This document shows, piece after piece, positions 8,667 to 29,078 of a stretch of 64,000 nucleotides of DNA. A program made the translations under genes and the position numbers. Every line of letters begins with the position of its first letter. Within the stretch, counting starts at the first letter, position 1. The DNA comes from Chrysophaeum taylorii (lineage: Eukaryota; Sar; Pelagophyceae; Pelagomonadales; Pelagomonadaceae). The notes below the pieces were generated by a model that was given only the letters and a program-made list of their open reading frames with translations, did not search any database and was not told the DNA's origin. The stretch covers positions 121,152 through 185,151 of the forward strand of contig JAQMWT010000167.1 in the NCBI GenBank assembly GCA_029834535.1. The letters run 5' to 3'.

Positions 8667-9467
8667 TCATCGGTCAGAGCGAGAGAGGATGTCGTCGCTG
8701 TCGAGGCGCTTGACCCGGGACCAGAGGCCAGTATGCTTGTCGACGAAGTAGACGTTGACGATGCCGCCCGAGTAGGCGTCGCGGTTGGCGGCGGTGAGGA
8801 CGGCCTTCTCGACGAGAGCGAGGGCCGCGTCCTTGTCCATGTTGGGTCGGTACTCCGCGTCGAGGACCGAGTATGCGAAGGTCGATCCGGAGCCGACGGC
8901 GAAGAGCGTGCCGTCGACGCGCGAGCCCTCCGAGTCGACGTAGACGAGGCCGGGTTCGCCGTCGTCTATTCCCATGATCATCGTGCCCACCGAGAGACCG
9001 AGGCCGCGGGGCTGTCGTCGGAGGGCCGTCGCCAGGACCCTCGCTGCGGCCGCCGTCGTGAGGCGCTCGCCCTCTTCGAGCTCGTGGAGCTTGGCGCGGG
9101 CCGAGACGAGGCGGATAAAGTGCGAACAGTCTGCGGCGCTACCTGCCATCGTCCCCAGGACGTGGCGCGAGAAGGGGATGACTTTTTCCGTCTTGCTCGA
9201 GCCCACGTAAGATCCCATCGACGCGCGCGAGTCGACGGCGCACGCCACGCCGCCGTCGAAGCAAAACGCCACCGTCGTCGTGCCGTGGAAGGCGCGCGAC
9301 GCCAGCGTCTCGTCGATCGCTTCTCTCGCGGCGTCGGTGACAGGGAGCTCCAAGCTTAGCTCTTCCTCCGCCGGCCGCAGCGGCTGCGCCTCGTACAACG
9401 CTCGTGTCAATGGGCTCTCGCGCGCGCCAGTCGCGAGTCTTGTCCACGACAGCAACAACAACCACAT
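8667..9467 (-). CDS. PSMB5: 20S proteasome subunit beta5 (chymotrypsin-like), unusual N-terminus
   Basis: The mature part begins after HG with the catalytic Thr (residue 63), followed by the VDSRAS motif with Asp17 and Arg19 and by Lys33 in mature numbering. The GTMAGSAADC, GLGLSVGTMIMG, GSGSTFAYSVLD and RDAYSGGIVNVY blocks are those of beta5 (PRE2). All catalytic positions are present, so it should be active. The chosen start gives a 62-residue propeptide that opens with MWLLLLSWTRLATGA, a short hydrophobic stretch resembling a signal peptide, which is unexpected for a cytosolic or nuclear subunit. In-frame upstream starts at 9554 and beyond would bury this stretch. Its stop lies close to the WW gene's stop (convergent). 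Confidence 0.85.
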   Translation of the reverse strand: MWLLLLSWTRLATGARESPLTRALYEAQPLRPAEEELSLELPVTDAAREAIDETLASRAFHGTTTVAFCFDGGVACAVDSRASMGSYVGSSKTEKVIPFSRHVLGTMAGSAADCSHFIRLVSARAKLHELEEGERLTTAAAARVLATALRRQPRGLGLSVGTMIMGIDDGEPGLVYVDSEGSRVDGTLFAVGSGSTFAYSVLDAEYRPNMDKDAALALVEKAVLTAANRDAYSGGIVNVYFVDKHTGLWSRVKRLDSDDILSRSDR

Positions 9468-9620
9468 CGTGCTGCGTCGGGCCGAGAATACTACTAGCCC
9501 TACACGCGATCGACGTGCCGGGGGAGGAGAGAGGAGAGTAGATGCATGATGCATGATTACGACGTGCACGATGGATGGTGGCACGTTTTTGCTTTCGAAA
9601 TAATAAACATAGACACACAT

Positions 9621-11546: not shown

Positions 11547-13974
11547 ATGGACGAAGTGGACCGCGAAAAGTTGTGGCGCGAAGTCGGCGACATCACGGGG
11601 AGCGGGGGAAGTTGCGAGGGGTTTGCTGTCATCGTGCGCAAGTACCAGGGGAACGCGCAGGCGCTGGAACCCGAGGTCGCGGCCGTGACGCAGGCACTCC
11701 TCGGCTTCGCAGCCTCGAAACTCGCGCGGCGGGACGACCCGTCGTCGTCGTCGTCGTCGTCGTCGGGTCCCCGACAAGAGCTCGAGGCCGCGTGCGGCGC
11801 GGTGTACGAGCTGTGCGCGGCGCGGGGCGTCAAGGCGACCGTGCGGGCGTTTCCGCACGCGGTTCGCGACCTCGAGGCGGTGGCGGAAACGCTGGCGTCG
11901 CTCGATCCTTCTCTCCGCGGCGAGGCGTGGCGCACGCGGTACACGTTGCTGCTGTGGCTGGGAATGCTGGCGAAGAATCCGTTCGACGTCGAGACCTCCG
12001 TCGGCGCCGGGCGCGAGAGCTTTCTGAGGGTCGTGCGGCGGGCGTGCGAGGCCTCGCTCGGCGACGCGGGACCCGCGCGCGACGCGGCCGCTTATTGCCT
12101 CTCGAGCGTGCTCACGCGGCGCGACGTTCCCCCCGCGGAGCTCGAGGCGCTCGTGGGACGCCTCGAGGAGCTGGTGGGCGAGGTCGCAGGGGCGGCCGGC
12201 CACGAGACGGTGTTGGCCGCGACGGGCACCCTCCGCGCCGTCGCGACCGCGCTCGAGACGGGCGCGCGCGCGAGATCGCGCGCCGTCGCCCGCCGCGCCC
12301 TCGAGGCCGTCGCGCCGTGCTTCGGCGACGACCGACCCCCGGCGATCCGCCCGCTCCGGCGCCTCGCGGTCAAGGTCGTCGGCCGCTGCGGCTGCGCGCT
12401 CCTGCGGCCGCGCGTCGCCGCGTGGTGCTACGCGCGCGGCCGCCGCTCGCTCGCGATCGCCGAGGTTCCGTCGTCCTCGCCGCGCCGCCAGGAAAGCAGC
12501 GTCGTGGAACCCGCTTTTGAGGAAACGGAGCCGGACGGTCCGGAGGACGAGGAGGCGGCCGAGCTGCTGGAGGAGGTGGTCGACCGTCTCCTCGAGGGTG
12601 TCCGGGACGCGGAGACGACGACGCGCTGGACGGCCGCCAAGGCGATCGCGCGGGTCGTCGCGCGCCTGAGCCGGGAAGTCGCCGACGACGCGGTCGCGTG
12701 CGTGTTGGACGACGCGCGCGGCGTCGGTCGGCCGATTGCAGACGACGACGCCAGGCGTCACGGCGCGTGCTTGGCCCTGGCCGAGCTCGCGCGCCTCGGC
12801 GTGCTCCTGCCCGCGCGCCTCGGCGAGGCGGTCGAGGCTCTGGAGACGTGCGTGCGCTTCGACCGCCGGACGGCCTCGGGCTCGGTCGGGGCCCACGTCC
12901 GCGACGCGGCCTGCTACGTGGCGTGGGCCTTGGCGCGGGCCTACGACCCCACCCTCGTTTCGCCCGCGGTCCCGCGCCTCGTCGAGGCCGTCCTCGTCGT
13001 CGCCGTCCTCGACAGGGAGGTCCACGTCCGACGGGCCGCGTCGGCCGCGCTTCAGGAGAACGTCGGCCGCCAGGGAAACGTCCCGATGGGCATCGAGCTC
13101 GTGCACCTGACCGACTACTTTACGCTCGGCTCGCGCGAACGCGCCTACCTCGAGGTCGCGCCTTCGGTCGCCCGCCTCTCGCCCGCGTACGCCGACGCCG
13201 TCTTAACGCGCGTCCTCGACGACCGCCTCTGCCACTGGGACCCCGCCGTCCGAAACCTCGCTGCCAAAGCCTGCGGCGCGATCGTGGCTGACGATTCCTT
13301 GTTGTTCGACCGCGCGATGACCCACCTCGCGCCGCGAGCGACCGAGGGCGAAGACGTCGAACGACGCCACGGCGCCCTTCTCGGCGTTTCCGAAACGGTG
13401 CTATCGCGCGCCGCGTGCGATTCGACGACGGCGGCCGCCGTCGCGAGAATCGTCTCCGAGATCCAAGCCGCCAAAAAGCGACACTATCGCGGCCGCGGAA
13501 GCGAGCTCGTCCGCGTCGCCGTCTGCCGCGCGATCGCCGCCGTCGCGCGCCGTAAAGGTCCGCTCGACGTCGAGGCGCGCGTCTCGCTCCTCGGCGCCCT
13601 CGACGAGTGCGTCGTCCATCCCGTCGACGACGTTCGCGACGCCGCGGTCCCGGCGTTCCGCTCCTTCTGCGCGACCTACTTTGCCGGCGACGACGACGAT
13701 TCGAAGAAGAAGAACCCAACTATCGTCGTCGTCGTCGTCGACTTGGCGACCCGCTACGTCGCAGACCTCGCCGCCGCGCAGACGCCCGCCGCGACTCGCG
13801 GCCTCGCGCGCTGCGTCGGCGCAATTCCCCTTCGTATCCTCGCTTCCAATCACATCCTCGACGAAGCGATCGATGTTCTCTGCCGGCGCGCCCACCGCGA
13901 CGACCTCGTCTCCGGCGAGCGAGACGCCGAGACCCGCCGCGACGCGCTCTCCGCGCTCGCCGAACTCTGCGGCT

Positions 13975-14010
<36 letters not shown>

Positions 14011-15479
14011 CGGAATTTCTTCTTTATATGGCGACTCCGGCCCGCGCGCGGCGCGTTTTTGAGACCTATGTCGAGGCCTGCCGCGACTACGGCGTCGACA
14101 AGCGCGGCGACGTGGGCTCGTGGGCGCGCGTCGCGGCCCTGCGCGCCGCCGCCGCGCTCGCCGAGACCGCCAGCCGCGCCTCGTACCCGGCGCCGTCCTC
14201 GTCGGACGCGATGATCGTTCCGGACGCGGTGGCGCGGGCCGCTGCCTACCTCGGTCCCGCCGCCGCCGAGGAGCTCCCCCCCGCGGCGCAACAACCGCCT
14301 TTGTTGTGCTTCTGGACCCCCGCGATGGCGCACTCGCTCGTCGACGTCGCGCTCCGCCAGCTCGGCGAGAAGCTGGACGTCGTCCGGAACGAGGCCGAGA
14401 CCGTCCTCCGGAAACTTCTCTGTTCCGACGACGTGGCTTCGGTCCCTCGGAGGGGCGCGCTGCGAGCCGCCCTTTTTTCCGACGATCGCCCGCGCTTTTT
14501 CTTCGAGGCGCTGACGCGCGCGATGGCCGCGGCGCCGACCTACCTCGATTCGTGTCTCGGGGGCCTCGCCGTCACTGCGGGGTCGGGCGACTCCAAGGCG
14601 AGCGACGAGGCGCGCAAGGCGCTCCTCTCGACGGCTCGCGACTGGGCCAAGAAAAAGAACCTCGCCGCCATCGCCCGCCTCGCGCGTTCGCTCGTCGCCG
14701 CGCTCGCCGACGTCTGCTTCTTCGCGTCGAAAAAGAAAGAGCCCCGCCGTGCCGACGACGACCCGGAGGCCAAGCACCGCGCGTCCGCGACGGCCGCAGC
14801 CCTGTCCAGGGAAGAGGCCGCCCGCGCCTACGTGCCCCTCCTTCGCCTCGCCGCGAGCCTCGTCGACTCGACGCCCTTTCGCGGCTTCTTCGTCGAGCCC
14901 GCGCCGACAGACCGATTCACGACCCCCGGCGGCGAAAACCTGGAAGTCGTGGATCACGACGACGACGACTCGATCGCATCCGTGCTCGTTACGACCCTCG
15001 CGCGCGTCGCCGCCTCGCGGAGATGCGCGACGGACGTCCGAAAGACCCGCGTCGTCGCCGATGCCCTGCTCGCCGCCGTCTCGCTCCAGGCCCCGCGGAA
15101 CGCGCGCAAAGCGGCGGCATCCGTCCTTTCGCTCTTGGCGCTTCCCATGCCGCGCGCGCGCGCCCACGTTTCAGAGCAGCTCTACGCCAGGCTCGTCGAG
15201 CTCGGCCTCGACGACCACCACCGGAAGAACGCCTTCTCCCCCGACCAGCTGCGCGCCGCGCAAGACCGCCTCGAGACCTCGATCTGGGACGACGACGCGC
15301 CCTTGGACAAACTACGAATTCAAGTCGACGTCCTCGCCGACGACCTCGGCATTCGAGACGAGGTCGCCCGCCTCGTCGCCATCCTCGACACCCGCATCAC
15401 GCACCGCGCCGCCGCCGCCGCCAAAACGCCCGACGAGCTCGAGTCCTATGCCTCGCTCATCAGGGACGCGGGCTACTGA
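11547..15479 (+). CDS. TBCD: Tubulin-folding cofactor D
   Basis: A single intronless frame gives 1310 residues, close to the roughly 1200 of human TBCD. The product is an Ala/Arg/Asp-rich alpha-solenoid of HEAT-type repeats. The most diagnostic block is near residues 505-560: NVGRQGNVPMGIELVHLTDYF is followed by YADAVLTRVLDDRLCHWDPAVRNLAAKACG and then RRHGALLG, matching cofactor D. TBCD captures beta-tubulin, joins cofactors C and E to form alpha/beta dimers, and also acts at basal bodies. Low-complexity insertions (Ser run near residue 70, Gly run near 815, Asp and Lys runs) come from trinucleotide repeats. Antisense frames are long only because of the GC-rich codon use. Confidence 0.85.
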
Positions 15480-15961: not shown

Positions 15962-18742
15962 ATGCTGTCATCTTCGAAGGGAGTCGCAGCCGTGCATCCC
16001 GAGGATGAAGGCAAGGCAAAAGAAACAGCAGCTGCAGAGGAGCCCTGTCGTACGAAAGAGAGCGACGAAAGTAAGTTAGACTGTGAACCAGCACAAGAGC
16101 TCTTCTTCGACGAGGAGCGCGTCACGATGTTTTCGGCGCAGCACCTGTTTGCAGAAATGCACGTCTACCATCACGACGTCTGGTACGAGACCCATCGATG
16201 GAATTACGGTCTCCAACAGCACCTCATCTCGGGACCGGCCTCGCGAAAGACTACGTCCCAAGCCGCCTGGTCCAAGCCACAGTTGTCGAAAATCTCCGTG
16301 GCGGCCTTGCTTTGGCTCCGAGATCAGTTGAAACCCGAGCTCGTTCTCCTCGACGTCGCCCCCGAACTGTGCGCCGTCGTTCGCGCGGTGGTCTCGGCGC
16401 TCGTGAGCGTCGGGAGCCTCGACGAAGGCGATTCCTCGCAAGCCGAAGTCCTGCTCCTCGCGCACTTGAATTCGGAGAAGTTTGTGCGCGAAACGCGACT
16501 GGAGGACGGCGAAGAGGACGCGCTCGCGGCCGACGCCGACGAGGAGGCCGTCCAGATTCTCGTCGACGATCGCGCTCTCGCCAAAATCAGCACGATCTGC
16601 TTGGTTCGTCTCGAAAAAGGCGAGAGGTCCACCAAGACCGGATTCGAAGAGAAGACGGGCAAGAACCTCTACGCCCGGTTTATCTGTTTTATTTTTGGAT
16701 CGACAAGGTTCAATCCGAACGGGGGCCAAGGGCGGAGCTTCAAGTTCCTGAATCGAGCGTCGCGCGACGAACGGCTGAGCTTTCGCGAAGTTGTCCCCGA
16801 GCACGTCGTCGGCATCGATCTAGGATGCGCGATGGCGATGATTATGCAAGACGACTCGGTCGTGCAAACATTCTACTGCGCCTCGAATGCCTCGGACGTC
16901 GTCTCAGCAATCGACCAGTGCTTAAGCGAACTCCACGTCGTGCCGAGAATGATGTGTCCGACGAACCGCGGCGTCCGCGCTCGCGCAAAGCGCATGCTTC
17001 AGCAGATGGGCAGACTAACACAAGAAGACAAGTGGCTTTCGAAACAAGAGAACATTTTTACTCAGGGCTCTCGCTACTCGATTGACGGATTGGTCCTCGC
17101 TATGGAGAAGTTCGCGATCCCGCTTCTCGCCGGTATCTGCGTCGCGATTATACTCTCCAACACCAGAGCGCGTAGCTACGACAGGTGGGTGGGAACCGGC
17201 CATGCTACTACTAGTCACGACGATGACCATGCCTCACACTCGAGCAACAGCACTTACAACGCGACGACGTCGTCGTACGATGACGACGACGACGACGACG
17301 ACGGCGTCTCGCATCCCACAATCTTCGGTCTTCGAATAAACGGGCACGACGTGACGCTTCATTTTATCGTCAACGACGTGCTCATGTGTCTCTTCTTTGG
17401 TCTGGCCTCCAAGGAAATCGTAGAAGCGTTTCAGCCAGGAGGATCGCTGCACCCGATCAAACTTGCAATTAACCCACTCGCGGCGACGTTGGGCGGGTGC
17501 TTTTTTCCCGTGCTTACGTATTTGCTGCTCGTCATCGCGGCGTACTCGGTCGGCTTCTTGAACGATAGTTACTCGCTTGGAGCGTACTTGAATGGCTGGG
17601 GCATTCCAACCGCGACTGACATTTCGATCGCGTGGGTCACGGCGCTCTGGGTCTTCGGGCCGGGCCACCCCGCGATCAATTTCTTGCTCCTCTTGGCGGT
17701 CGTCGACGATGGCCTCGGACTCGTTATCATCGCCTTGGCCTACCCTGACCCCCACGCCCCACTCAAGCCGCAGTGGCTCGGCCTCGTGCTTCTCGGCATG
17801 TTTGTCGCATACTGCCTCCGGCGGCTGAACTGCGCCAAATGGTCGCCGTACGTCTTCATCGCCGGTCCGTTCGCGTGGTTTGGACTTCTCTACGCCTCGC
17901 TCCATCCCTCGCTCGCGCTCGTCTTCGTCGTGCCCTTCATGCCGCTCAAACTAGAAAGCAACATCCTCCCGACGCTCAAAGAGATTTTCTCCGAGGAGCT
18001 CAACGCGAACATCGCGGCCGGTAGCGCGGAGGCACACGCTCACTCGCCGCTCCACGAATTTGAAGAGGCGACCAAGACCCTGGTCGACTTCTTTGTCCTC
18101 TTCGTCTTTGGCATCGTGAACGCCGGCGTGAAAGTCGACGAGGTAGGCCCCCTCACCGCCATCGTCGTACTAGCGCTCGTCATCGGCAAGACGCTCGGCA
18201 TCACGTGCGCGTCCTTGGTGAGCGAGAGACTCGGCTACGGCCTTCCCGAAGGCATGCGAAGGTGCGATCTCGTCTGCGTCGGTCTCATTTCTAGTGTTGG
18301 CCTGACCGTGTCCTTATTCATTTCGGGCGAGGCCTTCCAAAGGAAGCCACGTCTTCAGAATCAGGCGAAGATGGGCGCCCTACTCTCGCTCGGCACCGCG
18401 ATCGTCATGACGAGTCTCGCTAGCTCGCCCATATGGACGAGCATGGTGCCACCGCAGCTGCCAAAGCGCCAGTTTTCGGTTCAACATCGCCGCTCTTCCT
18501 ATATGATCGAAGAAGTTTCACTTGGTGAAATGGTGGCCAAGAATATGAAGCAAAACATGGACAAGATCCACCGAGTCGAAGCCACGATCGAGCAAGCCAC
18601 CAAACTCACCCGCGAGGAAAACCGCAAGGTGTTTGAGACCACCTCAATTGGTGAAAAAGAAAAGCTCATCGAGCAGTTCCGGAATCGATCAAATTCGGCT
18701 AGCGATATCACCAATGCGTTGCCTAAAGATGAAGGGAGCTGA
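15962..18742 (+). CDS. Fusion of SLC4/band-3 cytoplasmic domain with bacterial-type NhaA Na+/H+ antiporter
   Basis: One frame of 926 residues (ATG at 15962). Residues about 64-335 resemble the cytoplasmic domain of SLC4 anion exchangers: WYETHRW (W74), then AAWSKPQLSKISVAALLWLR, a VLLDVAPE strand, a split acidic linker, RFICFIFGS, and VVQTFYCASNASDVVSAIDQ with HVVP. Residues about 375-805 form a complete NhaA. It has the TATDIS motif with D553 (E. coli D133), VVDDG with D582/D583 (D163/D164), and IGKTLGI with K743 (K300). NhaA exchanges Na+ or Li+ for H+ across a membrane. An Asp/His/Ser-rich insert sits after the first membrane helix. A charged coiled-coil tail of about 90 residues ends the protein. 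The membrane is unknown, and no N-terminal signal is seen. Base composition and codon use match the neighbours. Confidence 0.8.
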   Translation: MLSSSKGVAAVHPEDEGKAKETAAAEEPCRTKESDESKLDCEPAQELFFDEERVTMFSAQHLFAEMHVYHHDVWYETHRWNYGLQQHLISGPASRKTTSQAAWSKPQLSKISVAALLWLRDQLKPELVLLDVAPELCAVVRAVVSALVSVGSLDEGDSSQAEVLLLAHLNSEKFVRETRLEDGEEDALAADADEEAVQILVDDRALAKISTICLVRLEKGERSTKTGFEEKTGKNLYARFICFIFGSTRFNPNGGQGRSFKFLNRASRDERLSFREVVPEHVVGIDLGCAMAMIMQDDSVVQTFYCASNASDVVSAIDQCLSELHVVPRMMCPTNRGVRARAKRMLQQMGRLTQEDKWLSKQENIFTQGSRYSIDGLVLAMEKFAIPLLAGICVAIILSNTRARSYDRWVGTGHATTSHDDDHASHSSNSTYNATTSSYDDDDDDDDGVSHPTIFGLRINGHDVTLHFIVNDVLMCLFFGLASKEIVEAFQPGGSLHPIKLAINPLAATLGGCFFPVLTYLLLVIAAYSVGFLNDSYSLGAYLNGWGIPTATDISIAWVTALWVFGPGHPAINFLLLLAVVDDGLGLVIIALAYPDPHAPLKPQWLGLVLLGMFVAYCLRRLNCAKWSPYVFIAGPFAWFGLLYASLHPSLALVFVVPFMPLKLESNILPTLKEIFSEELNANIAAGSAEAHAHSPLHEFEEATKTLVDFFVLFVFGIVNAGVKVDEVGPLTAIVVLALVIGKTLGITCASLVSERLGYGLPEGMRRCDLVCVGLISSVGLTVSLFISGEAFQRKPRLQNQAKMGALLSLGTAIVMTSLASSPIWTSMVPPQLPKRQFSVQHRRSSYMIEEVSLGEMVAKNMKQNMDKIHRVEATIEQATKLTREENRKVFETTSIGEKEKLIEQFRNRSNSASDITNALPKDEGS

Positions 18743-19231
18743 CGACGCGGATTAAGCGCATCATTTATTACTATACCTCGACGATACGGCGGAGCCTCCT
18801 TCCTCCCAGAGCCACGCGCGCATGTCGCCGTTCAAGACAAGACGCGCGGTGTTAACATTTGCAATCTCGGCGGTCTTATGCACAACGTTACTTCTAGCCC
18901 CCAGTGTCAAGTGCGTTTGAGCAAGGACCCGTGTTCTTCTCAACGCCGCTCCGAGGATGATAGCAAGCAAGAGGCTTCTCGCCGCACTCGGGATCCATCC
19001 ACTGAGGCCAGGGGGCGGGGTAGGTTGCTTTGTTGATAGGACTGTCGGCGTTGGTGATCAGCGATGGCGGGCGAGACCAGGCGCGTTGGCCTGGGGTCCA
19101 TGGAGTGCCGGAAGAGAAACTCTGCAACCCCCCCCCCTACCCATAAGTGATGATGACAATCGTGACGTCACGAGGGCGTATCCTATGTCTGCGGCGAGGT
19201 GGTGGAACAACTAGCACGAAGCGTCAACAAC
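18743..19231. other. Intergenic region before the coiled-coil gene
   Basis: No convincing frame. A poly-C run sits near 19,130. Several short ORFs here have no recognisable content. The region probably holds the 3' end of the antiporter gene and the promoter of the next one. Confidence 0.45.
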
Positions 19232-21994
19232 ATGCCGCCGACCTTGGAAGATGCGTTTGAGGTTGGTCTCGAGAATGCAGAGGTCCGGGAGCCGAAGCAC
19301 ATCGAAGAGACGAAGAGGCTGGAGATGGTGTGTGAGTATCCATCATCGATGGGTATCGCTGTGCCCACAGATGCGCCGATGCTTTCGGTAGACATATCGC
19401 AATTGTGTCGCGTGCTGTCCGTGATGGGAACATCGCTCTCGCATCTCCAGGAAGAGACGAGCAAGCCACCGGCATGGCTTGGAAGCGTGACAGCAAAAAT
19501 TGAGCGGATAGAGGTGCTCGACCGCGGATTCACGACGCTGACGGAGGTGGTGTCGAACCTCCTCGCACTTGCTCAGGTGGCGGGAGAACCTCGCGCGAAA
19601 AAGGCGCAGATGGACCTCGATGACGTGAGTCGCCGCGTGGCAGAGTCGAAGGATCGCGAGACAACTGCTGGCGGCGCAAATCGCGATCCGTTTCACGTCA
19701 TGGAGCTGACGGAGATGAAACATCGCATTTGTCGGCTGGAGAAGCGAGTGGCAGTAGCGCCGTCGCGCGACGATGTTGTAGAGCTTAAAGACTACGTGAC
19801 TGATCGCACGAAGAAGCTGAAATCAACTGTCGTAACGCTGCAATCACAGCTCGAGCGCAAACTCAACGAACGGAGCATGGAACACCTGGAGGGATTCGGA
19901 AAGTGGCAGGGCGAGCTCATGGAGGTGATGACGGGGAAGCTGCAGCTGATGACAGAGCGGTTGAACGAGACGCACGGCGAGCTTGAAGAGTTTCGCGAAT
20001 TCACGAGAGCGGAACTCCGAGAAGCCGAGGCAGCAAACAGGGCTGTGAAGGAGTGGGCCGCGCGAGAGTTTTCTACTTGTAGCTCGCAGGTACTCAACAT
20101 GCAAATGATGATCCAAAAAGTGATTGAGCGTGTCGGCTCGCTCGAACATACTGCGGCGAAGCAACAGGCGGAGTTTGAAGCGTTTGTCGGGCGCATTGAC
20201 GCAAGGCTCGTTGGAATCGACTCGAACTTCGCCGACCACGCGACGAGATTTAACAAAGTCGGTACGAGAATCGACGACTTACGGGAGAAACTCGACCACG
20301 AGGCGCAGCAAAGTAGCAAATTGGCCGACCAGTTGATTGAGGCGACGACACGGCTCGACGAGCACGCTGGGGAGTTGGCGACCGTTGGTGAGAAGACCGA
20401 CCGCCAGCTCGGAATGATCAAACGCAACGAAACAAGGATAAGCGAGATCGGATCGGAGGTTCAGGAGGAGATAAAAGTCGAGGACGAGCACCACGAAAGT
20501 CTGCTCACGAAGCAACGCGATCTCGAGGCCTGGGTCGAGCGGACGCGTACGGATGCCCTCGTTCTCCGAGAAGAGTTTGGGAAAATGGCCAAGACAGGAA
20601 AGCACTATCCTGACAAGTTCGACGCTCTCGAAAACGCACTCGAGGAGGTACGTGACCTGGCCGACCGCGAGCTCGAGATGACCCAGGCTTTCGAGAGCCG
20701 CGTCAAGGAACTCGAATCCCGGCAAACAGACGTCGCCCTTATTCGTAACGAGGTCTCGAACATGATTGGCATCGAGACGCGCAACCTGACAGAAAAGATC
20801 GCCAAACAAGAAACGCGTTTTAATGTACTCCAAGACGACGTTGTGGCGCGCGAAAACAAAGAAGAAAGTATGAAAAACGTCGTTGCGAGTGTCGAGGATC
20901 TCAATAAGCGGCTAGAGGAGGCCGAGTCTGTGACAGCAGAGCACGCCAGAACTGTCAGCGCGGCACTGGATGACGTCAAGTCCACCACCTCCACCCTCGC
21001 TGAGACACAAGCAAAGATAGAAGAGGCTGTCTTCCAGACGGCCACCTCGTCCAAGACTGGCAGCACAACCACCTCCAGAAGTGGCACAGACGTCTCTGGA
21101 AATGGCAGCAGCAAAGGCACGAAGACAGCGAGCGGAAACCCGTCGCAATTCAACCAGATGCGAAGGTCGAGTTTTGGTAGTTTCATGGGGGTCGACACCA
21201 CCGGACAGGGACGTCGCGCATCCGTTGCGAGAACCAGCGCCGCCGATCAGCAACAGTTCGCGCAAGATGAAGCCAACACTATTGCGCAGGCCTGCTTCCG
21301 ATACGAGAAGCTCTGCGTCGAGAAGGACTACCTCTGCCAGTTTCCCGACGATGTAGTCATGGCGATATCGGCCGCTTCCATGGAGATGGCAACTTTTATC
21401 TCTGAGAAGGTCGATGCTTGGACGCTGTCAGTCTCGGTCACTGCTGCCGACAACAAGTCGTCAGACGTGCCCGATATCGACGAACGAGAGGTCGAGGCCA
21501 AACGCCAGGCGGAGAAGACCACCTGGCTGCGTCTTGCCCACGATGAGGTAGCGGGCCTCGTCTCCTCCGCAGGCCTCAAGCCCAACCCACTCCAGCTCCA
21601 GGCACGGGAGCGCGTCTTTGCGCGAATCGTCAAGGCTCTCGAGATGTGCTTTGCGAAAAACGACTCATTCATGGTCCTCCAATCCTCGGGCTTAGCATCG
21701 GGCGGCAAGAACGTCCCGACCTGCATTGCTTGTGATCGCCCGCTCCCAAAGCGAACACAGGCCAAGTCGCGCGACGAAAGCAATACCCCGACGCGCGCTG
21801 AACCGGTGAGAGGAGCACCGCGCGCCTTTGGGAGGAAGTCGACGCACAAGTTATCAGATCACGGCGTCCACGATCCTTCCTCCTCTCATTCCCAGAGAAA
21901 GGTGCAGCACAAAGACCGCCAGGCCCAACTCTCTGGCCACGACGCCGTTGAGTCGAAAAATCATTCGGACGACTGGTATGGCGAGTGGAATTAA
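19232..21994 (+). CDS. Long coiled-coil protein with a C-terminal CxxCDRP motif
   Basis: The 920-residue product is mostly heptad-patterned, rich in Glu, Lys, Arg, Leu and Gln, from about residue 75 to 620, with repeated 'ELES/VEDLNKRLEEAE'-like blocks. A Ser/Thr/Gly linker follows (about 620-680). Then comes a helical part with FRYEKLCVEKDYLCQFPDDVV and finally CIACDRPLPKR near residue 840. A similar C-x-x-C-D-R-P motif occurs in some large coiled-coil proteins linked to flagella, but I cannot name an orthologue. No catalytic domain or signal is visible. I use the first in-frame ATG (19232); the frame opens 33 bases earlier. A cytoskeletal or basal-body role is a guess from neighbours and architecture. 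Confidence 0.7.
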   Translation: MPPTLEDAFEVGLENAEVREPKHIEETKRLEMVCEYPSSMGIAVPTDAPMLSVDISQLCRVLSVMGTSLSHLQEETSKPPAWLGSVTAKIERIEVLDRGFTTLTEVVSNLLALAQVAGEPRAKKAQMDLDDVSRRVAESKDRETTAGGANRDPFHVMELTEMKHRICRLEKRVAVAPSRDDVVELKDYVTDRTKKLKSTVVTLQSQLERKLNERSMEHLEGFGKWQGELMEVMTGKLQLMTERLNETHGELEEFREFTRAELREAEAANRAVKEWAAREFSTCSSQVLNMQMMIQKVIERVGSLEHTAAKQQAEFEAFVGRIDARLVGIDSNFADHATRFNKVGTRIDDLREKLDHEAQQSSKLADQLIEATTRLDEHAGELATVGEKTDRQLGMIKRNETRISEIGSEVQEEIKVEDEHHESLLTKQRDLEAWVERTRTDALVLREEFGKMAKTGKHYPDKFDALENALEEVRDLADRELEMTQAFESRVKELESRQTDVALIRNEVSNMIGIETRNLTEKIAKQETRFNVLQDDVVARENKEESMKNVVASVEDLNKRLEEAESVTAEHARTVSAALDDVKSTTSTLAETQAKIEEAVFQTATSSKTGSTTTSRSGTDVSGNGSSKGTKTASGNPSQFNQMRRSSFGSFMGVDTTGQGRRASVARTSAADQQQFAQDEANTIAQACFRYEKLCVEKDYLCQFPDDVVMAISAASMEMATFISEKVDAWTLSVSVTAADNKSSDVPDIDEREVEAKRQAEKTTWLRLAHDEVAGLVSSAGLKPNPLQLQARERVFARIVKALEMCFAKNDSFMVLQSSGLASGGKNVPTCIACDRPLPKRTQAKSRDESNTPTRAEPVRGAPRAFGRKSTHKLSDHGVHDPSSSHSQRKVQHKDRQAQLSGHDAVESKNHSDDWYGEWN

Positions 21995-22277: not shown

Positions 22278-25200
22278 TCATTGTTCGTTCTCTTCAGACT
22301 GTCGCTCGTGGAGCTTGGACGCGACGTAGTTCTTGGCCAGAAGCCTGACTTTGGCGACGGAGGATGCGTCGCCGTGGGATTGCTCAAAGTCGACGAATCG
22401 TTTGAGAGCAGCGTGCATGGCTTTTGGAACGAGTGGTGCGGAAGCCATACGCTCATAGATGGTGCGCACACCTTGGATGTCGCCCGATTTCAAGGTCTTG
22501 GCGATGTAGAGGTGCCACAAGTCGACTCGTTTAGGTTGGTCCACGAGGAGTTTGTCAAACACGGTGCGGCCGCGCTCCCTATCACCAACCTCAAACTCGG
22601 CTACGGCAAACCGGGAAAGGAGACCAGGATGATCATCGTTGGCTTGGAGCGCACGGTCCAGGACGGCGCGCGCTCCTTGCGCATCACCGGCAACGAGGCG
22701 CTCGCGACAATGGAGGATCCAGCTCTCCGGCTTGAGCTTTGACTTGCAGCGACGCTCCGCCTTACGATACGTTTCGTCGGCACGGTCATGATCGCCGCGC
22801 TTCGTGTGCAATGCAGCTACTCTGATCAGAACATTTTCCGGGTCGTTAGCAGCGCATGCCCTTTCGAGACACTCGGCGTACGTCGACGAGGTACCGTGGT
22901 CAAGCTCCAGCTCAACGAGGGCCAACCACACACGCATCCGCTCTGCCTCCTTGCGATAGCTGATCGTCCGCAATGCGCGTTCTGCGATCCGTCGCGCGGC
23001 TCCCACGTCGGTCTCGGCGACTTTGTGTGCCACGTACCGAGTCCACAGCACCCCCGAGTCTGGTTCTCCAACGAGTTGTCGCTCGTAGTCGTCCTCCGTC
23101 CGGGGTGCGCCGCCAGCGGCGAGCTCTGCCTCGCGGGCCTCCGCCTCCTCGTCGTCAATCGCCAATGCCCGTCGACTCCGTTTCTTCAGCGGCATCTCCT
23201 CGTTCTCTTCCTGGTCATCGGCTTCCCACTGCAATCCACGACTCGACGACGGGAGACCAACTAAGTCATCATCATCGTCGTCATCCTCGACATCGTCGTC
23301 TTCATTTTCATGGTCTCTTTCCGCGTCGTCATCCTCCTCCTCCTCCTCCTCTTGCTCAGAGCCCTCTGCTCGCTCATCCTCGTCTTCTTGGTCGTCGTCA
23401 TCTCGAGCGAGCATGGCGTCGAGACGCGCCTCGACGTCATCGTCGTCGAGGTCGTCGTCCTCATCCTCCTCCTGCTGCTCATCATCCACGTCGCCAACGA
23501 AGTACGAGGGCTTGAGGCCTAGCGAGATGCGCTTAGCGTGGGAGGGCGATTTCCCCGACGGCGGATCTTCGACTTTTAGGATCATCGCCTTGACCTTGTC
23601 GCCTTTCTTAAAGCGGGAATGGACGTCAGCGATGAAGGTGCCGTCGGCGAGCTCGGAGATGTGGGCGAGGCCGGATTCATAGCCGCGGGGGGCGTCGTCG
23701 AGCTTGACGAAGACGCCGTAGGTTTCTACACGCGTCACCACGCCCGAGAGCTTGGCTCCCTCCTCCACAACGACCTTGATCTTACCCTCGTTGGCAATCG
23801 CCGAAGGCCGCAGCGAAAGGTCGACGCGACCGGAGTTGTCGACGTTGCCCAGGACTACCGGCGCCACCAGCCTCCCCGCGAAGAATTCGGCGACCACGTC
23901 TTCGACGTAGCCATCGCTCAAATCTTTGAGCAGGACGCGGCCAACCACGTCGCGCGCGAGCTCGACGAAGACGCCAGCTCGCGGGTCGGCGCGGCGCACG
24001 AAGCCCGGTACGACGTCGCCCGGCCGCGGCTCCGGGTCAGCCGCCGCGGCGGCAGCGCCGTCGCCAGCCTCGACCAACGCGAGCCTCGAGGGCCGCACGC
24101 TCACCGGGAACACCGCTGTCGCACGAGGCGGCGCCTTCTTCTTTAAATTCGATGACGCGCCGAGAGACCGCTCCTCGCCAAGCACGACGACGCGCACGTA
24201 CGAAGCCGACGGTTCGGCGCGCTTGGCAACGTCGACCCACGCGCCCTTGTCGGCCATTTCGGTGGGACCCGCGCGGGCCGCGAGACCGTGCGGCAGCTCG
24301 AAACGCACGTCCAGGCCACCCTCCGAACTCTTCAGGAAGCGCGCGACGACCGAGACCCCCGGCTCGGGAGGGCGGCGCGGCCGACCTTCGTCATCGAGCC
24401 AGACCGTGAGCGTCCGTTTCCGGACCGAGTGCGGCGCGACGACGAGGCGGGCACCAGGGCGCGTCGCAGCGTCGAGGCGTCCGCGGAGAACCTCGTCGAG
24501 CAGGGCACCGTCGTCGTCCGATCTAGCGGTCCTCGAGCGAGCATCTTCGTAGAGCGCGTTGGCGACGTCCACCACCCGCACGCTGCCTTGGAGGCCCGGT
24601 GAGACGGCGACCTGTAGGGTCGCGTCGTCCTTGGAAAGGATGACGGCGTCGAGGTGGTGCGGCGCGCCACCATTTTCGAGTTCCTTCCACGAGAGCGGGC
24701 GCGGCTCGAGCGCGCGCGCGTCGCTGCCCCGACCCGAGAGCAGCGCGGCACGAATTGCGAACCGCTCCTTGCCGTCCGACCCCTTCTCGCTCCGGCGGTC
24801 AACCATGAGGACGCGGCACCGAAGCACCGCCCCAACCGTCGCGTGCGCACCAAAGAGCGGGTGCTCGCTCGGCGACGCAGCCGCGTCGTTGTCTTCGACG
24901 AGGAAAACGTCCGACGCGTCGACCGTCGCCGACGCCCGCTTGGTCGGGTCGTCGACGCGCACGCTGCACTTGAGCTCGCGCTCGCCTACCTCCAGGACCC
25001 GGCAGTCGACGTCGTCGCCAACCTCGAGGTCCCCCACGTCGGCGACGGCTTCGAGCTTTTTTTTTCTTGCCGCCGGCGACTTCTGATCGCCGTCTCTCGT
25101 CGTCTCCTCCTCCTCTTCTTCCGGCGGGTGAGGAACGAGCACGGGAAGGGCGGCGTAGGGTTGGGCGTCGAGGGTCACGCCGTGGCGAGCGAGGATTTCC

Positions 25201-28200
25201 GACACCGAGTGACTGGCGACGACGAGTGGCATGGTGGGCGCCTGGTGCGACAAGAGCTCGTTCCTCTTCTTGGCGCTTCGCGCGTGGAAGTCGCCGAGCG
25301 GGACGAGCGCGAGCGTCGAGGTCGCGGCGACCAACGCCAGGCACGCGGCGCCGCCGGCCAGAACGGAATCGGGAAGCAGCGTCGCCTGAACTTGTGCGCC
25401 TACCTGGAGACCGGCGACCGCGGCGAGCCTTCGCTTCTTCCGGCCCGCGCGGACGAGGTCGGGTTCCATCGTGCAGGCGAGCCGCGGACGGCGCGCGGGC
25501 GCGAGCAAGTGGAGAGCGCGGACCTTGACGACGTCGCCCGTCGCGCACGCGAGCGCGCGTGACGCGTCGACGTACATCTCGTAGGTCGCCGCGTCGTCGT
25601 CGTCGACGTCGGCGGGGACGAGGCGAAGCCCGCTTGCTCCCTTTGCGAGGACGCGAGCGTCCGTCGTGGTGCCAAGCTTAATGACATCATCACAACCTCG
25701 AACTGCCGCGTCCTCGGCGGCCGCCGTCGCGGCGAACAACGCGGGACCATCGACGACGTCATCAGTTTTTTCCCTCGGGACTCCCGTCATCGCGAGCACG
25801 ACGCGACAGCCAGATTTTTTGCTGTTGTTGTCGTCTTTGTCCTCCTCATCCTCCACGCGGACGACCCCGCACCGCACGGCGTCGCCGACCTGCGCGTACC
25901 CAGCCGCCGGGTCGTCGACGAACTCGTCGGCGAGCGACGATTTGGGAACTAAGCCCTTCAGACGGTTGGCGAACCGGACGACGAGGCCGTAGCGGCCCGC
26001 CGCCGAGACGACGCCGGTCACGGCGGTGCCCGCGTCTCGAGCGGCTCGAATCTCGTCGAGGCTCAGCGGTAGACGCTTGGCGCGCGCGGCGCGCACGAGC
26101 TCGGGTTGCGCCGAGAGGCGAGCGATCGCGCCGGCCGCCGGCGGCTCGAGCACGACGACGGACGAGGCCGTTTTCGATTTCGCGCGCGCTCGCAGCAGCG
26201 CGACGCCGTGGTGGCCGCCGTGATCGGCCGTCTCGCTCGCCGCGAGCCTGCCGAGGAACGAGGGTTTTCTTCCCGCGACGCGCACGAGCGCGGTCACCTC
26301 CTCCGCCGGCGCCGGCGGCGCACCGTCCGTCGAGACCGACGCGGCCTCGTCGATCGAGACCGAGCCGTCGCGACGCCGACGGCGTTGGCGCCGTTTTACT
26401 TGTCTGTTGGTCTTGGCGAGCTCGACGACGGTGGCCGCCTCGAACACCGCACCCGGCTCCACAGCAGCAGCCCCATCCTCCTCCTCCTCGCCACCAAAGT
26501 CGTCGTCGTTGTCGTTGTCTTCTTCGGCGAGCGCGAGCACGAGGCGAGGCTTGGCGCCCGAGCGGAGCGCGCAGCGCCTCACGGCGACGCGCACGACCTC
26601 GCCGAGGCCAAAGGCGGTCGGGTCGCGGCCACGCGCCGCGAGAGAGGCCGGCGGCACGCGACCGTGGACGCCGTTGTAAAAGGTGACGACCAAGCCGCGC
26701 GCGGCGTCGGCCCCCGTCACGAAGCCCTTGAACGAACGGCCGGCCGCGTCGGCCGCTCGCGCGTACGACGCGAGCGGCTCCGAGCGGTCGGCGACGAGCG
26801 AGGGCTTCATCGTCAGCAGGACGCGACGGTCCTCGACGCGCAGGACCTTGCAGGCGACGCGGTCCCTCTTCTTGTTTTTCTCCCCGAAGCGCTTCCGGGG
26901 GTCCACCTTGGGGACGACGTCGGAGATTTGGGCGTTGGTCACTTCGCCCACCAGCGTCTCGCTGAGTCTCACGCGACAGCCCCAGGCGGCCGCCTCGACA
27001 ACAACCCCCGACACCTCGAGGCCCGGGCGAAGGTCGCTCCTGGCGATGGGCGTCGCGGGGTCGAGGCTCTCGGGCCGCGCGGTCGCGATCGCCCAGCCCT
27101 CGAGGGGCGACGATCCGACGACGCGCGCGTCCGTCTCGTCCCCGACCGCCATCGGTTTACCGTCGGGCAACTTCGACACGTGGACGAACGCGAGGATTTT
27201 TTCGTCGGCTTGGAGGACTGCGCCGATTTTGTCGTCGATGCGGCGCACGACGGCGCCGCGCACGACGGTCCCGACGGGCGGGAGGTCGCGGGGCACGAGG
27301 GATACGAGATGCGACAGGAGCGTCAGCCTCACGAGCTTGGCCGCGCGGTCGACGGACAGGACGCGCGCCTCGACCCGCGACCCCTTGACAAATCTCGTCT
27401 CGTCGTCGCGGAGGTCGCCGCCGACCACGCCACCGAGATGGTCGCGGTCGACGATACCCGCGAACTCGCGATCCAAAAAGCTCACGGCGAGGCCGTCGGA
27501 AAACTTGCGTTCGACGACGCAGCGCGCGAGCTGGCCCGGAAGGAGCGACGACAAGGTCCAGTCGGGCCCCTCGACCGCCGCCGCGGTCGCGACTTCCGAG
27601 ACGCTCGCGCGGCTGAGCTCGACAACTCCCGTGCTCGTGTTCGCCCGGAGCACCCTGCACTCGACGAGGCGCGAGGGCGCGATGGCGTCGGCGTCGAACG
27701 CCCTTTTGAACGCGAGAAAACCCGTCACCCCTGCGACGCCGAGGTCTAGCACGAAGCCGCGTGCCTCGCGACTCGTCACGAGCCCGCACACCGACCCCAC
27801 GCGACCCGAGGCGAGGTCGTCCAGCCGCAGCCCCTTGGCCGCGAGCCGCGGCGCGACCGACAGCTCGATCCGCTTCGCGCCCCGCCTCCCTCCCCTGCTC
27901 GCCCGGCCCGTAGCCGTCACCGCGCACCGCACGACCTCGCCCGCGACCACCACCGCGCCGCTCGCCTCGAGGTCCACGTGGCCCACTAAAGCCCCGGGCA
28001 GCGACACGAGCGCGTGCTTCTCGCTCGCCGTCCGCACCACGCCCAGCGCCCACACCTGGTCGTGGTACGACGAGAACTTGCTCGCGCGGACGCGAGTCGC
28101 CTGGCCCAGCTTCCCCGCCTTGATCCCCGACCGCGTCCACGCCTCCACGGGATCCTTCGACCGCGACCCCGCCGCCGCGACCACCTCCTCGCGCACGCTC

Positions 28201-28397
28201 TGCCGCTTCCGATGCGTCCCGAACAACGCTTCTTCTTCGTCGCCCTTCCTCTTACGCCCCACGCCCGTCTTCTTCTTCTTGGCCGCCTTCTCGTCCGGAT
28301 CCTCGAATCTCACCTGCTGCTTCTTTTTCTTCGGAGAACCGATCGTATCCTTCGTCGACGGGCCATCGAGCCCGCCGCGTGGAAACAGATCGGACAT
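22278..28397 (-). CDS. RRP5: rRNA biogenesis protein RRP5 (S1-repeat and HAT-repeat protein)
   Basis: A single frame of 2039 residues from the ATG at 28397 (human PDCD11 is about 1870). It starts with a Lys-rich nuclear-type region. A long array of S1 RNA-binding domains follows; clear members include LPDGKPMAVGDETDARVVG, and GVVTRVETYGVFVKLDD with GLAHISELADG. A strongly acidic Asp/Glu region lies at about residues 1620-1750. The end (about 1765-2030) has HAT/TPR-like helices, including YERQLVGEPDSGVLWTRYV, RVWLALVELELDHG and KSGDIQGVRTIYERM. RRP5 binds pre-rRNA and is needed for making both ribosomal subunits in the nucleolus. No intron is required. An upstream in-frame extension of 19 codons has no ATG advantage. 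Confidence 0.9.
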   Translation of the reverse strand: MSDLFPRGGLDGPSTKDTIGSPKKKKQQVRFEDPDEKAAKKKKTGVGRKRKGDEEEALFGTHRKRQSVREEVVAAAGSRSKDPVEAWTRSGIKAGKLGQATRVRASKFSSYHDQVWALGVVRTASEKHALVSLPGALVGHVDLEASGAVVVAGEVVRCAVTATGRASRGGRRGAKRIELSVAPRLAAKGLRLDDLASGRVGSVCGLVTSREARGFVLDLGVAGVTGFLAFKRAFDADAIAPSRLVECRVLRANTSTGVVELSRASVSEVATAAAVEGPDWTLSSLLPGQLARCVVERKFSDGLAVSFLDREFAGIVDRDHLGGVVGGDLRDDETRFVKGSRVEARVLSVDRAAKLVRLTLLSHLVSLVPRDLPPVGTVVRGAVVRRIDDKIGAVLQADEKILAFVHVSKLPDGKPMAVGDETDARVVGSSPLEGWAIATARPESLDPATPIARSDLRPGLEVSGVVVEAAAWGCRVRLSETLVGEVTNAQISDVVPKVDPRKRFGEKNKKRDRVACKVLRVEDRRVLLTMKPSLVADRSEPLASYARAADAAGRSFKGFVTGADAARGLVVTFYNGVHGRVPPASLAARGRDPTAFGLGEVVRVAVRRCALRSGAKPRLVLALAEEDNDNDDDFGGEEEEDGAAAVEPGAVFEAATVVELAKTNRQVKRRQRRRRRDGSVSIDEAASVSTDGAPPAPAEEVTALVRVAGRKPSFLGRLAASETADHGGHHGVALLRARAKSKTASSVVVLEPPAAGAIARLSAQPELVRAARAKRLPLSLDEIRAARDAGTAVTGVVSAAGRYGLVVRFANRLKGLVPKSSLADEFVDDPAAGYAQVGDAVRCGVVRVEDEEDKDDNNSKKSGCRVVLAMTGVPREKTDDVVDGPALFAATAAAEDAAVRGCDDVIKLGTTTDARVLAKGASGLRLVPADVDDDDAATYEMYVDASRALACATGDVVKVRALHLLAPARRPRLACTMEPDLVRAGRKKRRLAAVAGLQVGAQVQATLLPDSVLAGGAACLALVAATSTLALVPLGDFHARSAKKRNELLSHQAPTMPLVVASHSVSEILARHGVTLDAQPYAALPVLVPHPPEEEEEETTRDGDQKSPAARKKKLEAVADVGDLEVGDDVDCRVLEVGERELKCSVRVDDPTKRASATVDASDVFLVEDNDAAASPSEHPLFGAHATVGAVLRCRVLMVDRRSEKGSDGKERFAIRAALLSGRGSDARALEPRPLSWKELENGGAPHHLDAVILSKDDATLQVAVSPGLQGSVRVVDVANALYEDARSRTARSDDDGALLDEVLRGRLDAATRPGARLVVAPHSVRKRTLTVWLDDEGRPRRPPEPGVSVVARFLKSSEGGLDVRFELPHGLAARAGPTEMADKGAWVDVAKRAEPSASYVRVVVLGEERSLGASSNLKKKAPPRATAVFPVSVRPSRLALVEAGDGAAAAAADPEPRPGDVVPGFVRRADPRAGVFVELARDVVGRVLLKDLSDGYVEDVVAEFFAGRLVAPVVLGNVDNSGRVDLSLRPSAIANEGKIKVVVEEGAKLSGVVTRVETYGVFVKLDDAPRGYESGLAHISELADGTFIADVHSRFKKGDKVKAMILKVEDPPSGKSPSHAKRISLGLKPSYFVGDVDDEQQEEDEDDDLDDDDVEARLDAMLARDDDDQEDEDERAEGSEQEEEEEEDDDAERDHENEDDDVEDDDDDDDLVGLPSSSRGLQWEADDQEENEEMPLKKRSRRALAIDDEEAEAREAELAAGGAPRTEDDYERQLVGEPDSGVLWTRYVAHKVAETDVGAARRIAERALRTISYRKEAERMRVWLALVELELDHGTSSTYAECLERACAANDPENVLIRVAALHTKRGDHDRADETYRKAERRCKSKLKPESWILHCRERLVAGDAQGARAVLDRALQANDDHPGLLSRFAVAEFEVGDRERGRTVFDKLLVDQPKRVDLWHLYIAKTLKSGDIQGVRTIYERMASAPLVPKAMHAALKRFVDFEQSHGDASSVAKVRLLAKNYVASKLHERQSEENEQ

Positions 28398-29078
28398 CGT
28401 CGACCTCGCACAAAACTTCCTTCGCCCGATTCGGCTTTTTAGGGTAAAGATCACGAAGAGAGTTAAGGGGTCGTGAACGTGAACCCTGGGTCGTCCGGTC
28501 GAACGTCGAGCAATTCCGAGGCGACGCCGTCGATGATGTCCAGGTCGTCCAAGTCGCCGAAACCTTTGCGGCTGTAGTCCATGGGTCGAAGGGGATATCG
28601 GTCACGGCAGGAGCCGCCGGGGGAGGCAACAAACAGTACGAGCGCATCGGAACCGACTTTTTGTTTTAAGATAGTGTGCTGCGCAGCACCTAGGAGGCGC
28701 CAGAGCAGACAGACGCCGGAGGTACGCGGACGGCGGCAAAGTCCTTGTGTACAACAGACAGGGGCGAGCCCTTTAGCTGGGCATGTTCGGCGGTCAAGGA
28801 CTGTCGAGGCGCCACGCCAAGGACGTCCCGCGAGAGCCGTCGAACGCGACTCGCTCAAAGGCGGTAGCATAGACTAGCTTCCGCGGGCACACCGCAGCGC
28901 ATCGCTGCGCGAAGACACGGGAACCGGTCAACCGCAGAAAGAACAAAGCTCCGGAGAGCAGCGGAGGTCGACGACAGGGGTTCGCGATCGATCCTGCCGA
29001 AGACATCTCGCTGGTCATCGCGGAGCGAGCGTAGCGACAAGAGGATGCCGTGGAGCTGCTGCTTTGAGACACATAGGG
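28398..29078. other. Region between RRP5 and ASCC3, both on the minus strand
   Basis: It should contain the ASCC3 3' end and the RRP5 promoter. A minus-strand frame ends at 28463 with a 39-residue acidic tail (DYSRKGFGDLDDLDII...) that looks protein-like, but its upstream part is not convincing. I record it as a possible terminal exon of a small gene, unproven. Confidence 0.35.

Follow-up and report, generated by a model that had tools for sequence, protein, structure and literature searches.

In passages of a 2015 review, the N-terminal domains of SLC4 transporters are described as cytosolic, soluble and dimeric, and as carried on a flexible linker (PMC4664831). In the known transporters (AE1-3 and the sodium-bicarbonate transporters) this domain, represented in Pfam by Band_3_cyto, precedes an SLC4 membrane domain. 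AE2 is activated by alkalosis and its N-domain was reported to hold elements of pH regulation, and the N-domains of both AE2 and the sodium-bicarbonate transporters change transport activity, as stated in the same passages (PMC4664831). Furthermore, it is stated there that the N-domain seems to have arisen from an independent gene that already existed, that the SLC4-like proteins of bacteria, fungi and plants are without it, and that no isolated homologous N-domain gene could be identified in any available genome (PMC4664831). The other related system is the NhaA family of Na+/H+ antiporters, whose topology is given as N-in in part of another paper (PMC8396727). The original prediction, which joined these two systems in a single protein, knew of no description of such a fusion. 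In agreement with this, no paper on an SLC4-type N-domain combined with NhaA was found in the open-licence full-text literature; the domain tables of protein databases may list the architecture without comment.

The window analysed here, a stretch of 64,000 nucleotides from the alga Chrysophaeum taylorii, carries such a gene at 15962-18742 on the + strand, on which all of the parts of the gene described below lie. As had been claimed, the gene is a single uninterrupted open frame of 926 amino acids, starting with the ATG at 15962 and ending with the stop at 18740-18742, and by frame and Pfam it codes for an SLC4-type N-domain followed by NhaA. A weakly kept N-terminus (residues 1-48, 15962-16105), in which 5 of 18 aligned residues are the same in a paralogue found on contig C200, leads into the SLC4 (band 3) cytoplasmic-type domain (residues 49-341, 16106-16984). 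A linker (residues 342-373, 16985-17080), sharing 13 of 30 aligned residues with the paralogue, connects it to the NhaA membrane domain (residues 374-824, 17081-18433), and the protein ends in a C-terminal tail (residues 831-926, 18452-18739; 22 of 74 aligned residues shared). Past helix 1 of the membrane domain lies a loop rich in Asp, Ser and Thr (residues 404-452, 17171-17317), which holds the sequons N429-S-T and N433-A-T. Neighbouring ORFs in the window matched a proteasome subunit (8670-9620), tubulin folding cofactor D (11547-15476, adjoining the fusion gene), RRP5-type S1 and HAT repeats (22281-28601) and, at 29082-32714, a Sec63/DEAD helicase that includes an SNRNP200 domain. The long ORF directly downstream of the fusion gene (19199-21991) gave only a sub-cut-off Pfam match and appeared coiled-coil-like by eye.

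When the N-terminal 373 residues were run alone in Pfam, as had been suggested for residues 1-360, the expected band-3 profile was obtained, with Band_3_cyto (PF07565) scoring 39.2 bits (E 8.2e-10) against a cut-off of 34.3; on the whole window protein the score was 29.1 bits (E 9.9e-7), which is below that cut-off. In NCBIfam, residues 99-173 matched TIGR00834, 'anion exchange protein', with an E of 5.1e-8 and 31.4 bits, far under the whole-protein cut-off of 599.45. A profile made from the window N-domain and pieces of its paralogues was searched against 177,635 distinct sequences of the PDB with E values up to 10 allowed, and all 12 matches were SLC4 proteins, the best with an E of 1.7e-11. 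Both halves of the domain were matched in nine of the 12 sequences and the first half only in three band 3 chains; in the sodium-driven chloride bicarbonate exchanger 9mix and the sodium bicarbonate cotransporter 3 structure 9ovr both halves (ETxRW/WSKP and RFxxxLGP/IGxxxAxLM) were aligned. We regard this profile search as the strongest evidence that the N-domain is of SLC4 type. The blocks ETHRW, WSKP, LLDV and RFICFIFG and a last block, SAIDQCLSELHVVP, lie within residues 49-341. The SLC4-type assignment that was originally given to residues 64-335 thus stood in Pfam, NCBIfam and the PDB profile search, but the domain extends rather over about residues 49-341.

The possibility that the N-domain is simply an EIIA domain was rejected, as PTS_EIIA_2 had no match in the N-domains of the window or C200 in Pfam at E up to 10, a search in which few matches above 0.1 pass the HMMER filters. 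Since the ETxRW/WSKP half is present and an EIIA match is lacking, the algal domain is of the animal SLC4 type. Like the N-domains of AE1-3 and the sodium-bicarbonate transporters, it matches the profile over most of its length, has both halves and is placed before a membrane transporter. It differs from them in that it precedes NhaA, in that the E91-R298 charge pair is broken, and in being distant by single-sequence scores, as such PDB searches with the N-domain were weak (E 0.0067 for the window and 0.0015 for C200, with best scores of 18.8 and 21.2 bits).

The membrane part of the fusion protein did not match HCO3_cotransp (PF00955) in Pfam and matched instead Na_H_antiport_1 (PF06965) over residues 462-818 (E 6.8e-53, 180.3 bits, cut-off 23.5); in a single-sequence search the window protein matched PDB NhaA at an E of about 1e-23. 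Alignment with E. coli NhaA bore out the four ion-site residues that had been named from the sequence, with D553 (17618-17620) aligning with D133, D582-D583 (17705-17710) with D163-D164, and K743 (18188-18190) with the lysine of LIGKPLG, K300. The same residues are kept in C200. While it shares these key Asp/Asp/Asp/Lys residues with E. coli NhaA (PF06965; 1zcd), the algal protein belongs to a planctomycete-rich branch and has in addition an N-domain of large size, an acidic loop and a C-tail. The score of 132.5 bits against the NCBI NhaA equivalog TIGR00773 (cut-off 254) suggests that the NhaA part is a divergent branch. E. coli NhaA is activated by alkaline pH. Among its residues linked to pH sensing, the positions of E78, H225 and E252 are kept in the window by alignment, and those of R81, E82, K249, H253 and H256 are not.

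Judged from these sequence features, it is fairly probable that the protein is an NhaA-type Na+/H+ antiporter whose SLC4-type N-domain forms a dimerising cytosolic cap that sets activity by pH or by a partner, and that the antiporter serves Na+ (Li+) export. As NhaA proteins are N-in, the N-domain would be cytosolic and the acidic loop past helix 1 would lie outside, although the sequon N309 inside the supposedly cytosolic N-domain makes sequons weak evidence of topology. In residues 1-48 no stretch exceeded the hydrophobicity threshold used, and the absence of a hydrophobic stretch at the start argues against a plastid location. In the proposed mechanism, the N-terminus would face the cytosol, as that of other NhaA proteins does, and the N-domain would dimerise atop the NhaA dimer and set antiport activity by cytosolic pH or by a bound partner, such as the cytoskeleton or a second messenger. 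The antiporter would then move Na+ (or Li+) out against protons, either at the plasma membrane or at some other membrane that is not of the plastid. The loss of several pH-sensing positions is a point against a regulated antiporter. By analogy with the SLC4 N-domains, regulation of the Na+/H+ antiporter from the cytosol nevertheless appears to be the most likely role of the domain.

It could also be argued that the N-domain serves mainly as an anchor or as a platform for assembly, which binds the cytoskeleton or a scaffold or holds the dimer together while the transport rate is unaffected. In the passages cited above, ankyrin is named among the skeleton proteins that the N-domain of AE1 binds, and transport by AE1 and AE2 is largely kept without the N-domain; however, the altered activity brought about by the N-domains of AE2 and the sodium-bicarbonate transporters speaks against an anchor only (PMC4664831), and we consider this role unlikely, if still a serious contender. 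Far less probable is that the N-domain still handles bicarbonate, delivering or sensing HCO3-/CO2 and thereby coupling the antiporter to carbon uptake as part of a carbon-concentrating mechanism. For the homologous SLC4 N-domains a tunnel for the entry of bicarbonate was proposed, but it is itself disputed within the same passages, in which the Glu91-Arg298 pair of NBCe1-A is called completely conserved in the SLC4 bicarbonate transporters (PMC4664831). The many light-harvesting genes of the organism would be in keeping with a bicarbonate role. Against it stands the charge pair of the tunnel proposal, which is broken in the alga. In NBCe1-A numbering, the R298 position is C289 in the window and Ala in C200, and the E91 position, placed by offset, is Gln in the window and Glu in C200 and in a third copy on contig C670. 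Neither of the two intact algal genes retains the R298 half, and the E91 half is missing only from the window copy. Loss of the R298 position speaks against a bicarbonate-tunnel or bicarbonate-delivery role, and the broken pair argues against an ion-path role of the N-domain, a point that the anchor has in its favour.

The genome that holds the window (70.8 Mb, 697 contigs) gave two NhaA matches in a genome-wide search, that of the window and another on contig C200. In the C200 gene the domains follow the same order as in the window gene; its frame break is explained by a GT-AG intron of 47 nt close to the 5' end, and splicing leads to a protein of 1084 amino acids. The two halves of its N-domain are identical to those of the window copy at 52/124 and 52/137 residues (38-42%) and the NhaA core at 221/367 (60%). 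Band_3_cyto scored 44.9 bits on its N-part and 40.4 bits on the large exon 2 alone, 1035 amino acids with NhaA included, both over the cut-off. At the third copy (C670:88500-96500, locus L011) parts of the N-domain and NhaA lie scattered over three frames, so that it looks like a decayed copy; its first fragment scored 31.1 bits with Band_3_cyto, under the cut-off, and its second fragment had no match. The claim that an SLC4-type cytoplasmic domain is fused to a full NhaA was thus upheld by the profile searches, and also by the second fused paralogue, in which the order is the same and the linker is partly kept. Although long chance frames are common in the GC-rich window, it is hardly credible that the fusion represents two separate genes or an artefact of annotation or assembly, such as a chance open frame in GC-rich DNA or misjoined contigs, as the second locus repeats the order, linker and frame at identities far past those of a recent copy and remnants of both parts are present at the third.

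A search of the genome with the C200 N-domain returned the window copy and C670, followed by 11 matches that are weak (E no better than 0.01) and fall in residues 82-240 of the query, mostly a low-complexity stretch. Since the window's own copy escaped the genome-wide search with Band_3_cyto, further copies may exist. Light-harvesting matches are present on the window contig, C200 and C670 alike, which indicates that these are contigs of one alga. There were 84 such matches in the genome, where one gene may give several, and one of two light-harvesting frames examined matched fucoxanthin chlorophyll a/c proteins at 2.8e-67, the other being weaker (best 2e-34). The number of matches and the strong one among the two speak for an alga with fucoxanthin, probably an ochrophyte. 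On contigs C88, C390, C539 and C518 the light-harvesting matches were clustered, many with an equal profile score, as in an amplified family. Two SLC4-type frames were found in the alga, on contigs C441 (L060) and C74 (L061). Both match HCO3_cotransp, and no Band_3_cyto match was seen in either at E up to 10, where a divergent domain in an upstream exon is possible. The SLC4-type frame on C441 has a hydrophobic stretch near its start.

For the origin of the NhaA part, three bacterial phyla were chosen on purpose, and matches at an E of 1e-50 or better were found in 14 of 246 Planctomycetota genomes, 1 of 247 Bacteroidota genomes and none of 299 Pseudomonadota genomes. The closest bacterial NhaA, with up to 50% identity over 374 amino acids, came from the Planctomycetota search. 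A tree was built with 36 rows, made up of 2 algal and 34 bacterial frames, as 38 loci were matched and 4 near-duplicates were left out. In this tree the two algal NhaA form one clade (100/100) within a group of 15 rows (99/97), and the Planctomycetota search supplied 12 of the 13 bacterial rows of the group and the Bacteroidota search the remaining one. Within the three phyla sampled, the tree supports the bacterial origin that the original prediction had given to the antiporter. The algal sequences are nearest to L031, L035 and L039 with a support of only 83/76, and the long algal stem (1.01) means that the donor cannot be named and that the transfer may be old.

It was also considered that the N-domain came together with the bacterial NhaA donor. 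Among the 34 bacterial NhaA frames this was ruled out, as none has room for the domain, with at most 162 residues, counted from the stop, ahead of the match. The whole fusion protein had no relative in prokaryote contigs, in which the NhaA part alone led to 13 loci, and no relative was found in scans of viral contigs. Because the algal NhaA groups with mostly planctomycete NhaA, the 34 bacterial frames leave no room and the algal SLC4-type frames are without the domain, it is probable from these comparisons that a bacterial-type antiporter gained its N-domain in a eukaryote.

Band_3_cyto also had matches in bacteria: such matches came from 14 of 246 Planctomycetota genomes, with the score over the cut-off in 8 of them, and from none of 14 control genomes. 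Three loci from the 14 matching genomes were examined (L066, L067 and L068, from genomes G232, G157 and G071), and all three code for SLC4-type transporters and not NhaA, with HCO3_cotransp at an E of 5.3e-166 or better. Their N-domain matched PTS_EIIA_2 (E 7.4e-25 to 4.1e-23) as well as Band_3_cyto (E 3.6e-21 to 1.6e-12) and has an invariant PHAY in an EIIA-like 'GxxxAxPHAY', a stretch that resembles the EIIA active site. Like the algal fusion, these SLC4-like proteins place a domain of the same superfamily before a transporter; they differ from it in their SLC4-type membrane part, in the PTS_EIIA_2 match and in the absence of the ETxRW/WSKP half. The claim of a eukaryotic domain on a bacterial antiporter is therefore to be kept in part, in that the algal domain is of the animal SLC4 type, but the domain is not purely eukaryotic, as all three planctomycete loci score with Band_3_cyto. 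An hhalign comparison of the planctomycete and algal N-domains gave 77.7% over 76 columns. A local profile built from the N-domains of the window and C200, which found its positive controls (the window, C200 and four C670 frames), matched none of 595 frames of the fetched loci, planctomycete and algal SLC4-type frames included, at E up to 10, and none in as many shuffles. As this profile finds no planctomycete frame, the link between the algal and bacterial domains rests on hhalign and on Pfam Band_3_cyto matching both, and by sequence the tie appears weak. The N-domain of the three planctomycete proteins may connect EIIA with the SLC4 cytoplasmic domain. We suggest tentatively, as a possibility that falls somewhat short of likely, that the SLC4-type N-domain may be an ancient EIIA-derived regulatory module, older than animal SLC4 transporters and independent of them, which was put on unrelated transporters and would make the algal antiporter responsive to pH or a partner.

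The algal fusion is relevant to the statement about the N-domain made in the passages of the 2015 review cited above (PMC4664831), and so are the planctomycete proteins. A protist carries an SLC4-type domain on a different transporter, while its SLC4-type frames found show none, and it is suggested that the SLC4 cytoplasmic domain is a module that can occur apart from bicarbonate transporters. The fusion may be regarded as a natural experiment, in which the action of the N-domain could be tested on a well-understood antiporter unrelated to bicarbonate, and algae would gain a candidate protein of bacterial origin for regulated Na+/pH control.
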